Source of the DNA: a virus
Length of the DNA: 31,167 nt
Reading direction: 5' to 3' (one strand)
IMG/VR virus record: IMGVR_UViG_3300030098_002531
Coordinates: 1-31,167 of that record
Shown: piece after piece, positions 2,742-28,842 of the stretch
How positions within the stretch are numbered: position 1 is the first letter of the stretch
Layout of the letters: every line of letters starts with the position of its first letter
The notes under the pieces: model-generated
What the model saw: the letters and a program-made list of their open reading frames with translations, nothing else
Databases searched by the model: none
Told to the model about the DNA's origin: nothing
Made by a program: the position numbers and the translations under genes

Positions 2742-3290
2742 ATGGCTGATTCAAACATCACTGAAACCATCGTTGACCTCTTCATTGACAACTACAACGT
2801 AGAAGCACTCGACGACGACAAGTTCCGCCACATCAACGGCGACCAAGGCTTGCCAAACCCACGCTTCAACATGGGCGTCAAGTACGAGCTTGGTGGGCTG
2901 ACAGACAGCGCCGCCTACTCACTCGGACAAAAGCGCGACTGGCTCGACAGGGTAGAAACCACCCAGCAGGCAGAGCTTGAAGCCAACGGCAACGAATCCA
3001 CCAAGTTCCAGCGGCTATCGATGGACTTGGTTAAAGCGGAAGCTGCATTCGAGAATGCACAAACGTTCTACCAAGTATTCGTTGATCTCTACAACGCACT
3101 GACAGGTGACATCTGGTGCGGTGGACACGCTGAAGAAGACTACGGACGCCGCTGGTGGGCAGAGAAAAAGGAAGCAATGCGTACTCCTACTAACGCCTAT
3201 GTTGCACCAACCAAGAAGGCTATCGCATCCAAGAAGGAGATGCTCAAGCAACGGGCACGCGATGCACAGACAGCAGCCGCTGTAGGCTAA
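2742..3290 (+). CDS. Conserved-looking phage protein of unknown function, 182 aa
   Basis: Starts MADSNITETIVDLFIDNYNV behind a GGAG ribosome-binding site 9 bases upstream. It is a soluble, acidic-to-neutral protein, mostly helical. A Trp-rich patch (GDIWCGGHAEEDYGRRWWAEK) lies around residues 120-140 and the tail is Lys/Ala-rich. I do not recognise a family. It is a single-gene unit, followed at once by a strong intrinsic terminator and preceded by the structured divergence zone and a 20-bp palindrome. It may therefore be expressed on its own, possibly early or in the lysogen. Function unknown. Confidence 0.75.
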   Translation: MADSNITETIVDLFIDNYNVEALDDDKFRHINGDQGLPNPRFNMGVKYELGGLTDSAAYSLGQKRDWLDRVETTQQAELEANGNESTKFQRLSMDLVKAEAAFENAQTFYQVFVDLYNALTGDIWCGGHAEEDYGRRWWAEKKEAMRTPTNAYVAPTKKAIASKKEMLKQRARDAQTAAAVG

Positions 3291-5281: not shown

Positions 5282-5881
5282 CTAGCGGCACTCGCATGAT
5301 GAAGCCAGATCTAATTTATTTTTATTGTAATGATTTATAGCTTGAACAACTTTACCAATCAGTTTGACATCACTCATTTTTGGTGGGTCATGCTGAAATC
5401 CCCAATCAGTTGGCTTAAATACAATATGTTTATCAACAACTTGCCCAACTAAAATACCAAACTCTTCATCTTCAAAAGCTACTACATCACCATGAATAAT
5501 CTTTGCATCAACATCTACAATGATTGTTGTGAAAGCCATTATTCCGCCAGCACCAAACCCAGTCCACATTCCTAGCCTATACGCTTCTACCCTGCCCAAT
5601 TTTGGGTCAACAACCATATCGACTACAGCACCACTCGCATCTTTTACCGGGAGCCTATCGCCCTCGGCTGGGTTAATAATGCCCGGCTGCGTTCCAACTA
5701 CTTTTGAAAGCTTGGAGATGGTGCGCAATGACGGAATGAACTTGGTATCAGAATTCAAGAACCTCGTGATGTTGGTTGGAGATGTACCAGCTTTGGTTGC
5801 CCACTCATTAGCAGACAGACCTTTTTCTTTCATAGTTTGCCTAAGCCACACACGGATGGCTCTACGCTCGCTTTCAACCAC
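5282..5881 (-). CDS. CI-like phage repressor (HTH plus S24-like C-terminal domain)
   Basis: 199 residues starting at GTG 5881, with GGGAGA 8 bases upstream. An upstream ATG is closed by a stop after seven codons. Residues 10-60 hold an XRE-type helix-turn-helix (MKEKGLSANEWATKAGTSPT, NITRFLN). The C-terminal part (HGDVVAFEDEEFGILVGQVV, then HIVFKPTDW and KLIGKVVQA) follows the LexA/CI S24 fold. However, the Ser-Met dyad normally found before 'GDxV' is not visible, while a Lys (VFKPTD) is. The protein may therefore not self-cleave. It faces a Cro-like gene across a 132-bp gap containing three operator palindromes, so it is very probably the lysogeny repressor and is self-regulated. Confidence 0.85.
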   Translation of the reverse strand: MVESERRAIRVWLRQTMKEKGLSANEWATKAGTSPTNITRFLNSDTKFIPSLRTISKLSKVVGTQPGIINPAEGDRLPVKDASGAVVDMVVDPKLGRVEAYRLGMWTGFGAGGIMAFTTIIVDVDAKIIHGDVVAFEDEEFGILVGQVVDKHIVFKPTDWGFQHDPPKMSDVKLIGKVVQAINHYNKNKLDLASSCECR

Positions 5882-9741: not shown

Positions 9742-10131
9742 ATGACACAACAGTATGATGAAACCGACTCAGGCGCAGCGTTCCCGCCCAAGGATAATAC
9801 CAAGCTGATCCTGACCGGTCCTATCAATGACAACGGCAATGATACACGCATTGCCGTCGTCAAATCGACATTGCCCGATGGTCGTCAGATCTTTGATCTG
9901 TTCGAAAAGGTCGGCACTCTGTTCGATAACGAGGCTGAAAACCCCAAGGCTCCCAACTATACAGGGCCGTGGGGCGACAGACGTATCGCTGCTTGGGCTA
10001 AGGAGTCCGACAGTGGGCAGCGTTACATGTCCATGAAGATATCAGACAAGCGTGATCAGATGGCTGTCAGCGAGGCTCCTATGCCTGCAAATAGCCAGGT
10101 TAGCGAATCCGTTGATGACATCCCTTTCTGA
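9742..10131 (+). CDS. SSB-like protein with acidic DDIPF tail
   Basis: 129 residues from ATG 9742 (TCTGGAGGATTGC upstream). No classical OB-fold signature is obvious, but the protein ends SESVDDIPF after a Pro/Ser-rich linker. That is the acidic tip by which bacterial SSBs (DDDIPF) recruit RecQ, RecO, PriA and others. The middle (NDTRIAVVKSTLPDGRQIFD, LFEKVGTLFDN) is beta-rich. Its place after YqaJ, HTH_39 and ERF also suggests a single-strand binding or SSB-mimic role. The fold itself is inferred. Confidence 0.65.
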   Translation: MTQQYDETDSGAAFPPKDNTKLILTGPINDNGNDTRIAVVKSTLPDGRQIFDLFEKVGTLFDNEAENPKAPNYTGPWGDRRIAAWAKESDSGQRYMSMKISDKRDQMAVSEAPMPANSQVSESVDDIPF

Positions 10132-10411
10132 TATCGTAACGATTGAAGATGTGTCTGCGGCACTAGGGACTTCACCCACCAAGGTGAAGGACCTATGCCG
10201 CAAGCACAGCGTCCCTGTCATCAAGATCGGACACCAAATCAGGTTCACACAGGACGCAGTGGACCGCTTGTTGGATTCAGTAACATGGCATTACCAATCG
10301 TCAAACGAGGTAGATACTACTATGTCAAAGGCACCGTTTCGTGGGGTAACAAGAAACTCGTCATACGCCAAACTACAGGAAGAACTGTCAAGTCAGAAGC
10401 ACGGCAAGTAG
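10115..10411 (+). CDS. Excisionase-like HTH_17 protein
   Basis: 98 residues from ATG 10115, which lies in the last codons of the SSB-like gene. Residues 1-60 (VTIEDVSAALGTSPTKVKDL, RKHSVPVIKIGHQIRFTQDA, VDRLLDS) form a MerR/HTH_17 winged helix as in phage and plasmid excisionases. The tail is polar. It sits directly before the integrase and overlaps it by 127 bases, which is unusually long, so the two are probably co-translated and held at a fixed ratio. Directing excisive recombination is the likely role. Confidence 0.75.
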   Translation: MTSLSDIVTIEDVSAALGTSPTKVKDLCRKHSVPVIKIGHQIRFTQDAVDRLLDSVTWHYQSSNEVDTTMSKAPFRGVTRNSSYAKLQEELSSQKHGK

Positions 10412-11241
10412 CTGACGATATCTACCAGCAGGCACTCAACAGATTAAAGGGCGGCACAGGCGCTGCCCTTTTTTCAACTGCTGCGCTGGAGTGGGTGCAA
10501 TTCAAACGCCCCGGCATAACGGACATTGATAATCTAAAAAAAATATCAGACTTCTTCAGAGACAAGACAGTCGATGAGATCAGGCCGGAAGACTGGACGG
10601 CCTTCTGCCGCATCCACCTGTCCAGTCACAAGCCGTCTTCTGTCAACCGCATCCGCAGCACCCTCAATGCTGTGCTGCGCTCCGCTTCCAGAGAAATCAA
10701 ACTCGACAAGCTGAAAGACAACGAAGAGCGAAATGTATTTTTGTCAGTGGAAAACCAAGAGCGTCTGCTGGCAGCATACCCAGACTTCATTCGTCCTTTC
10801 TTTATCACGCTTTGCTATCAAGGCATGCGTCGTGGTGAAGCTCTCAAACTAGAATGGAAGCATATCAACTTTGACGAAAACATTATCCACATGCCCGGCA
10901 AGATTACCAAAAGCGGTATGCCCCGCACCATCCCTATACATCCACGCGTCAAGGAAAACTTGCAGCACAATCACCCTGTCTTCTTGTTCACAAACAAATT
11001 CGGACAGCCTTACAAAACCATCGCAGGCCCACGCAAGGTGCATCAAACTGCAAGAAGAAAAGTCGGATTGGAATACTTCAGAATACATGACTGGCGACAT
11101 CACTGGGCAAGCCGGATGGTTATGGTAGGAGCCAGCATCAAAACCCTGATGGATTTAGGTGGCTGGGAATCTGAAAGCATGGTCATGCGATACACAGCCG
11201 TAAGCGATGAGCACAATCGCAGCACACTCAACAAGCTGTAG
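10285..11241 (+). CDS. int: Tyrosine-recombinase integrase
   Basis: 318 residues from ATG 10285 (MALPIVKRGRYYYVKGTVSW). Residues 1-50 are a short arm-type N-terminus, 60-140 the core-binding helices, and 150-318 the catalytic domain. Catalytic residues are visible: Arg 182 (GMRRGEALKLEW), Lys 209 (KITKSG), His 268-x-x-Arg 271 (HDWRHHW), Trp 294 in the His/Trp position (LGGWES) and Tyr 303 (MRYTAVS). It should integrate the phage at a host tRNA-Thr; a half-tRNA attachment core lies 42 bases after its stop. It is the last gene of the operator-controlled recombination operon, so it is expected to be silent in the lysogen. Confidence 0.93.
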   Translation: MALPIVKRGRYYYVKGTVSWGNKKLVIRQTTGRTVKSEARQVADDIYQQALNRLKGGTGAALFSTAALEWVQFKRPGITDIDNLKKISDFFRDKTVDEIRPEDWTAFCRIHLSSHKPSSVNRIRSTLNAVLRSASREIKLDKLKDNEERNVFLSVENQERLLAAYPDFIRPFFITLCYQGMRRGEALKLEWKHINFDENIIHMPGKITKSGMPRTIPIHPRVKENLQHNHPVFLFTNKFGQPYKTIAGPRKVHQTARRKVGLEYFRIHDWRHHWASRMVMVGASIKTLMDLGGWESESMVMRYTAVSDEHNRSTLNKL

Positions 11242-11283
11242 GGTATATTATGATTAGATTTCAACGCGCTATAAGCAAGAAAC

Positions 11284-11327
11284 TCACCCTTACCAAGGGT
11301 GCGCTCTACCGCTGGAGCTATGGCAGC
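11284..11327 (-). other. attP: attP core: 5' half of tRNA-Thr(GGU)
   Basis: Read on the - strand from 11327 this is a tRNA 5' half. It has acceptor strand GCTGCCA, TA, a D-arm GCTC-CAGCGGTA-GAGC, G, and an anticodon arm CACCC-TTGGTAA-GGGTG. The anticodon is GGT (threonine). After 11284 the sequence stops being tRNA-like; no T-arm or 3' acceptor strand follows. Its position just after int identifies it as the attachment core. Most tRNA-targeting phages carry the 3' part of the tRNA, so carrying the 5' half is unusual. It is not a complete tRNA gene. Confidence 0.75.
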
Positions 11328-11345
11328 ATTTCCACCGATCCTCAG

Positions 11346-11375
11346 ATAATACTCTGTATTCCTTCAAAAAAACAA
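11346..11375 (-). promoter_or_regulatory. Putative promoter to restore the host tRNA-Thr after integration
   Basis: On the - strand TTGTTT, 18-bp spacer and TATTAT (11351-11346) lie 18 bases before the tRNA 5' end. If the phage supplies the 5' half of the tRNA, it must also supply a promoter, and this one is correctly placed. The -35 match is modest. Confidence 0.45.
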
Positions 11376-11398
11376 TCTCAAAAAAGATATGTGCGATA

Positions 11399-11412
11399 CT
11401 GCATTATTGCAT
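11399..11412. promoter_or_regulatory. Operator site after attP
   Basis: CTGCATTATTGCAT, one mismatch from the perfect palindrome. With the weaker copy 43 bp downstream it forms a pair upstream of the two-gene unit at 11504, repeating the spacing seen at the repressor/cro switch. Confidence 0.65.
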
Positions 11413-11441
11413 GTTTTGTCTGTTTCACCCTGTTTCTTGTC

Positions 11442-28029: not shown

Positions 28030-28842
28030 TTATGTATTGTTGTCGAGGACTTCATAGACACCGTTATCATTGATAACGACAGCGCCCATGGACATCGTCG
28101 ATGTGGTGAGGTGGGATACCTTTTCGGGTATGTAGTTCAATTCGGTAGAGACATCAGCGTTCACACCAAGACCTACAGCAGAGGTATGGTATGCCATATT
28201 CTTACCGGCAGTAACTGCACTGGTCGAAAAGATATTGAAACCAAGGAATTGCTTCATGGTCATGCCACCAGCAAACGGAAGATTCTGCTCACCAACAAAG
28301 TCAGACGATGCAAACTCGTTGATGGCAAAAAGATCGGCATATCCTTTCGGATGCATGGCAAGATAGCGACTACCATCTTCCGGCACATCGTTGGAACCGA
28401 ATGTCTCAAACAATGACAACAGATCGGCCTTTGCAAGGGCAGACCCGGTATCATGGATTTGAGTGCTGTTAGCGCCGGAATCCATGGCCGCATAGATTAA
28501 TTCGTCAGTCTTACGACCAAGAGCAGCAGCAGCTGATTGAGCCACAGCCTGACGCTCATCGATGTTGGTCTTCAACTCATCGAGTTTATCTATATACTCG
28601 GCAGCATAGTAATCTTCCATCGTGCTTTCGACGGTTGTATGCACCAGCTCCATTGGAGTAACGGAACCGTTGCGGCTCTTCGTAGAAGCAGAACCAGTAC
28701 CGATTTTCTGGAAACGAACAGTGTTTCCACTCACTTGCGTGTTACGAATGGTGTTCTTTAGCTTTGAACCCATACGCTGATACGCCATGTGAACTTCGGA
28801 CTCGAACTGCTTAATGAATGCGACATCAATTGTGTTCGCCAT
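28030..28842 (-). CDS. Major capsid protein
   Basis: 270 residues from ATG 28842, with AGGAAGGAC upstream. The pattern MANTIDVAFIKQFESEVHMA, YQRMGSKLKNTIRNTQVSGN, TVRFQKIGTGSASTKSRNG, then DYYAAEYIDKLDELKTNIDE and TDELIYAAMDSGA fits the Phage_capsid_2-type HK97-fold coat proteins. So do the later AMHPKGYADLFAINEFASSD and FLGFNIFSTSAV. It is shorter than T7 gp10 (about 345) and belongs to a different capsid family from T7, although its neighbours are T7-like. An operator palindrome lies 15 bp before the start, suggesting direct control of capsid expression. Confidence 0.88.
   Translation of the reverse strand: MANTIDVAFIKQFESEVHMAYQRMGSKLKNTIRNTQVSGNTVRFQKIGTGSASTKSRNGSVTPMELVHTTVESTMEDYYAAEYIDKLDELKTNIDERQAVAQSAAAALGRKTDELIYAAMDSGANSTQIHDTGSALAKADLLSLFETFGSNDVPEDGSRYLAMHPKGYADLFAINEFASSDFVGEQNLPFAGGMTMKQFLGFNIFSTSAVTAGKNMAYHTSAVGLGVNADVSTELNYIPEKVSHLTTSTMSMGAVVINDNGVYEVLDNNT

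Follow-up and report, generated by a model that had tools for sequence, protein, structure and literature searches.

Opposite halves of tRNA-Thr(GGT) in the attP of marine phages with nearly identical integrases

Phages and islands that integrate into tRNA genes show a bias towards carrying the 3' half of the target in attP, and the usual explanation is that the host promoter must be preserved. The Islander catalogue bears out the statement of the first-pass annotation of the DNA studied here that tRNA-targeting phages usually carry the 3' part (3,760 of 3,919 islands), 5' fragments being found in 159 of the 3,919 catalogued tRNA islands (PMC4383910). Archaeal elements of the pTN3 kind use the 5' half of a tRNA gene as attB, and their integration separates the rebuilt tRNA from its promoter (PMC5495485); the integrase promoter is reported to drive its expression instead (PMC8371274). 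According to the latter source, which cites bacterial exceptions from Williams 2002, this arrangement is seldom seen in bacteria. The mycobacteriophage Fionnbharth and others display tRNA-dependent lysogeny, in which the phage brings a complete tRNA gene and the core measures about 10 bp (PMC10865867), and the roseophage CRP-810 integrates in the middle of a host tRNA-Thr, as verified by PCR (PMC11288001). Amongst marine phages, the groups G16 and G18 were assigned to SAR116 by att matches (PMC3861242).

We analyzed a stretch of 31,167 nucleotides (the window) that is part of a virus record of 34,868 bases. The end of the record (34669-34868) repeats its start in two pieces (1-85 and 363-478, 99% identity, separated by a gap of about 277 bases), which probably reflects a circular or terminally redundant genome together with an assembly artefact. 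Owing to this terminal repeat the genome is probably near complete, with an internal, unintegrated att site. The major capsid protein (28030-28842) shares 51% identity with its counterpart in pelagiphage EXVC031P Hodr and otherwise about 30% with those of HTVC010P-like phages. The features relevant to integration are the following:

5282..5881, minus strand: HTH_3 protein (profile match), probable lysogeny repressor
10052..10411, plus strand: HTH_17 protein (profile match), probable excisionase, overlapping the start of the integrase gene
10285..11241, plus strand: tyrosine integrase (PF00589, E 7e-23), likely start Met 10285
11242..11425, unstranded: exchangeable attP cassette of the 5'-half type, 53-68% identical to L003/L004 and about 93-98% to L005
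11283..11327, minus strand: 5' half of tRNA-Thr(GGT), the attP core, an exact 45/45 host match
11285..11301, minus strand: anticodon stem-loop CACCC-TTGGTAA-GGGTG, a near-palindrome detected as an inverted repeat
11328..11338, minus strand: host-like tRNA leader TCGGTGGAAAT, 10/11 to a host clade, where phage-host identity ends
11346..11351, minus strand: TATTAT, a -10-like hexamer of putative function, 18 bases before the tRNA 5' end
11370..11375, minus strand: TTGTTT, a weak -35-like hexamer with an 18-base spacer, overlapping an arm motif common to 3'-type phages

The integrase ORF opens at 10195, 30 codons upstream of the probable start, and its early part (10195-10284) overlaps the HTH_17 gene. 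Met 10285 is the likely start because relatives have stops in the stretch preceding it; apparent stops in the integrases of relatives belong to this stretch ahead of the real start Met and not to the gene.

The core, GCTGCCATAGCTCCAGCGGTAGAGCGCACCCTTGGTAAGGGTGAG when read from 11327 to 11283 on the minus strand, lies 41 bp beyond the integrase stop. Its match to the host gene begins with tRNA base 1 and ends right after the anticodon arm, where the hosts continue with GTCGCG... and the window with TTTCTTG. The first-pass annotation had described the core as running from the first base of the tRNA through the anticodon arm, with anticodon GGT, and the host match upholds this and reaches 11283, one base beyond the 11284 given there. 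Intact host tRNA-Thr(GGT) genes contain the same 45 bases, exactly in most cases and with one change in a few. Within the core the anticodon GGT is the sole asymmetry of the near-palindromic stem-loop. Since the identity between sites of the two types described below ends at this stem-loop, and in view of the anticodon-loop integrases treated in PMC8371274, we place the presumed core sites and 7-base overlap at 11285..11301, so that strand exchange would occur in the anticodon loop. In the free phage, the hairpin at 11301-11285 (minus strand) followed by AGTTTCTTGC scores as terminator-like, a property not conserved in L016; it could serve as a stop for antisense transcription into int.

The search suggested in the first-pass annotation, for alphaproteobacterial tRNA-Thr(GGT) genes that share the core, was successful. 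A class-wide tRNA search matched 4 of 385 alphaproteobacterial genomes, all four in one order, and in a sample of 136 genomes from this order, probably the marine SAR116, 28 carry tRNA-Thr(GGT), the core being identical to every host gene found or differing by one change. In five host genomes the match continues into the leader (TCGATGGAAAT as against TCGGTGGAAAT in the window) as far as 11338, with core and leader together aligning at 38/39 (blastn, E 2e-12), and this extension argues that the match is not due to chance. A chance tRNA match is likewise rejected by the 45/45 identity, by the relatives and by the natural junction of one of them. Phage-host identity ends before a promoter-like element of the host (TTGCCA-16-TGTAAG), which lies 20 bases from the tRNA. 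In G218, a single-contig genome of the host order, 34 tRNA genes were found, one of which is tRNA-Thr(GGT); it is likely single copy there, on a tRNA list that is incomplete in that it misses tRNA-Ile.

Amongst 30 host contigs, nine (L120, L124, L125, L127, L130, L131, L142, L143, L214) end inside tRNA-Thr or at most about 170 bases downstream of it, and one (L144) ends upstream, which suggests a mixture of occupied and empty sites in host populations. Contig G506 (L214), where a 5' half occurs without the complete pattern, was considered as a displaced 5' half and rejected, as the contig end falls within the anticodon loop.

An integrase search matched 67 viral contigs. The 5'-half form is found beside int in the window, in L002 (integrase 100% identical to that of the window), L005 (89%), L112 (71%) and L016-L021 (46%). 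At the same place L003 (92%), L004 (89%) and most others carry, as reverse complement, the 3' half of this tRNA. Phages with an integrase 89-92% identical to that of the window may therefore have the opposite half beside it. Read from the distal arm towards int, the 5'-type site is CACCCTTGGTAAGGG and the 3'-type site CTCACCCTTACCAA; the two have the same distal half-site and differ in the centre, that is, in the anticodon, and all cores compared include the anticodon loop and stem. A third layout (L022, L023, L063, L064, L067) has the 3' half on the int side, in 5'-type polarity and with other tRNAs; in the integrase tree L022 and L023 branch as the sisters to the L016 group, which is 5'-type. 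Across 14 relative loci of the 5'-type, some of them overlapping pieces of one record, 41 of 41 tRNA bases are unchanged, while identity drops as low as 46% in the integrases and 63% in the arms. Such conservation would fit selection acting to keep the tRNA half functional.

The two forms prove to be cassettes of about 180 bp, extending from the int stop to about 11425, that accompany nearly identical integrases. Between the types, identity is 53-68% within this island and about 90-98% towards the integrase. Compared with L003, identity of the window is about 0.83-1.0 in int, drops to 0.53-0.63 at 11243-11422 and returns to 0.8-1.0 from 11423 to about 11764. Compared with L005, it is high within the cassette and low beyond about 11480. 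L112 resembles the window at 0.83-0.97 in the cassette and at about 0.47-0.93 (mostly 0.7-0.9) in int, its integrase being 71% identical despite a cassette identity of 83-97%. With the window, L005, L003 and L004 as the taxa of a site-pattern test, the cassette groups the window with L005 (68:0:0), and in int the pattern L005+L004 occurs 16 times and the other two 6 and 5 times. A single integrase clade for all 5'-types is rejected (AU test, p 0.008 with the four close rows and 1e-12 with all seven), and three changes of attP type are forced on the integrase tree. This distribution of the two forms shows that they have been exchanged by recombination, and the comparisons are most simply read as movement of the attP cassette from phage to phage via homologous recombination.

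Crossing the window with a host gene in silico gives an attR of phage arm, core and host 3' half, in which the core is followed by GTCGCGTG, and an attL in which host leader and 5' half are followed by TTTCTTGCTTATAGCG. ARAGORN calls a complete tRNA-Thr in the predicted attR and no tRNA in the predicted attL or in attP. A crossover anywhere in the shared block yields a complete tRNA with phage DNA as its 5' flank; retention of the native tRNA 5' end is impossible within this block, which ends at 11338. The restored tRNA would thus consist of a phage-supplied 5' half and a host 3' half, as the first-pass annotation had proposed. A natural junction is available for the 3'-type: L075 runs from a host gene (an oxidoreductase, syntenic in 25 of 30 host loci) through a complete tRNA-Thr into 1,359 bp that are 100% identical to the free phage L044, and in this integrated phage the host promoter is kept. 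The first-pass annotation had also called for a search for prophage junctions at tRNA-Thr(GGT), and none of the 5'-type was found, either by pattern searches of IMG/VR or in the 136 genomes of the probable host order. Integrase searches returned only distant recombinases from these 136 genomes, and only distant Sphingomonad and other matches from genome contigs.

Set against the described systems, the locus has, like the anticodon-loop prophages and islands with tyrosine integrases (Islander site A; Williams 2002), an attP beside int, a tRNA fragment shared with the host and a presumed crossover in the anticodon arm; it combines a PF00589 integrase and the 45/45 tRNA match with one junction that rebuilds the tRNA, in silico here and naturally in the 3'-type L075. 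It departs from Islander-type sites in that 5'- and 3'-types alternate among near-identical integrases via exchange of a short cassette. With pTN3-like elements it shares the tRNA 5' half in attP and, judging by sequence, a displaced native promoter; however, the attP of pTN3 lies inside int, which is split upon integration, whereas here the core (11283-11327) lies outside a gene that ends at 11241 and stays whole. As in tRNA-dependent lysogeny, an essential host tRNA would come to depend on phage DNA in the lysogen. Identity with that system is rejected, as ARAGORN finds no complete tRNA in the 31,167-nt window and the 45-bp core rebuilds the tRNA in silico. CRP-810 (L208) has a complete tRNA-Thr(GGT) beside int at 3005-3079, with CCCTTGGTAAGGG just upstream; it differs from the window in this complete gene, in its 13-bp core and in an integrase only 26% identical, and may represent another way of using this tRNA, one that resembles tRNA-dependent lysogeny. 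Similar size and host assignment through an integrase-adjacent tRNA fragment are shared with G16 and G18; the passages on the att matches of these groups do not take up half or polarity. A 5'-half attP is therefore rare but known; the exchange of cassettes that reverses polarity looks to be the new part, no report of it having been found in the literature searched.

As the best overall explanation we regard it as likely that this is a temperate, podovirus-like marine phage whose integrase uses the anticodon stem-loop of tRNA-Thr(GGT) as its recombination site. The host anticodon stem, being an inverted repeat, would allow the integrase to dock in either direction, and homology of the overlap at the anticodon (GGT versus ACC on the strand read from distal arm to integrase) would pick the productive direction and with it the tRNA half that the phage must supply. 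The phage half would lie on the distal side either way, polarity deciding between the 3' half, which preserves the host promoter, and the 5' half, which forfeits it. With the 5' cassette, the rebuilt tRNA would have phage DNA upstream, and the host promoter would come to lie at the other junction, directed antisense into int. That the tRNA half is a relic or a chance-acquired fragment without att function seems scarcely credible: the 5'-type junction is indeed absent from IMG/VR and the 136 genomes, but the half sits exactly where relatives have their 3'-half attP, and this very tRNA is occupied by one relative that is integrated.

What would transcribe the rebuilt tRNA is the more delicate question, as something must do so if the half is used, as it appears to be, and tRNA-Thr(GGT) is single copy. 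The 41 unchanged tRNA bases, set against diverging arms and integrases, provide the strongest indirect argument here. The first-pass annotation had proposed a promoter made of TATTAT and a weak TTGTTT; the hexamers and their spacing stand, but the promoter function does not follow, since a strict consensus scan reports no promoter in the arm and the best score has a p of about 0.09-0.17 against shuffles of the same arm, or 0.04-0.17 when the 5'-type arms are taken together. On a scale of E. coli hexamer frequencies the 5'-type arms score 8.2 (window, L005, L112) and 7.8 (L016-L018), 18 arms of the 3'-type reach at most 7.1 (median 5.3), and host genes have a median of 5.2. That the 5'-type arms, which represent two independent lineages only, outscore all 3'-type arms tested is suggestive support for a promoter. 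However, the arm segment TTTTnTTGAAGGAnTACA...TATTA also occurs in 3'-type relatives, which keep the host promoter, so that binding of the integrase or an accessory protein explains it at least as well. We regard TTGTTT-18-TATTAT as a plausible promoter, and the more far-reaching proposal of the first-pass annotation, that the phage could control the host tRNA-Thr in the lysogen, found no support.

Should the element have no such role, the rebuilt tRNA might be read through from the late operon, which ends with the lysozyme gene (11908), or depend on a promoter farther upstream that escaped recognition. The late genes are on the minus strand and face attP, and no terminator is reported between 11908 and attP, which together with the empty strict scan favors this view; yet a lysogen is expected to keep its late genes silent, small plus-strand ORFs intervene between lysozyme and attP, and the promoter-like element is at about the host distance from the tRNA (18 versus 20 bases), so that we consider read-through unlikely. 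It seems rather improbable, too, that TTGTTT/TATTAT is an arm site only and that 5'-type lysogens, poor in tRNA, are rare or sick, making the cassette close to a dead end. The conservation of the element in 3'-type phages and the lack of 5'-type lysogens in IMG/VR and the 136 genomes would fit, but lysogens of the whole family are very few in collections anyway, and the 5' cassette persists, its tRNA half unchanged, alongside several different integrases, the most distant at 46% identity, for which a dead end would not account. A bolder reading, which we consider slightly less likely than not, is that one integrase family operates with two attP cassettes that are interchangeable and opposite in polarity. 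The anticodon would set the orientation of the prophage and the 5' cassette would supply a functional promoter, so that an essential tRNA would be made from phage DNA while the host promoter points antisense into int. A weaker part of the explanation that we regard as best overall is that the tRNA transcript may start within the phage arm, close to or at TTGTTT-18-TATTAT, and that a short leader would follow the start, its last 11 bases matching a host clade.

Near-identical integrases that use the same target with opposite halves provide a natural comparison in which the host-promoter explanation of the 3' bias becomes testable. The comparison further suggests that attP is a module that can move between phages and thereby reverse the orientation of the prophage. 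If the promoter is real, lysogens of the 5'-type would depend on phage DNA for the expression of an essential tRNA.
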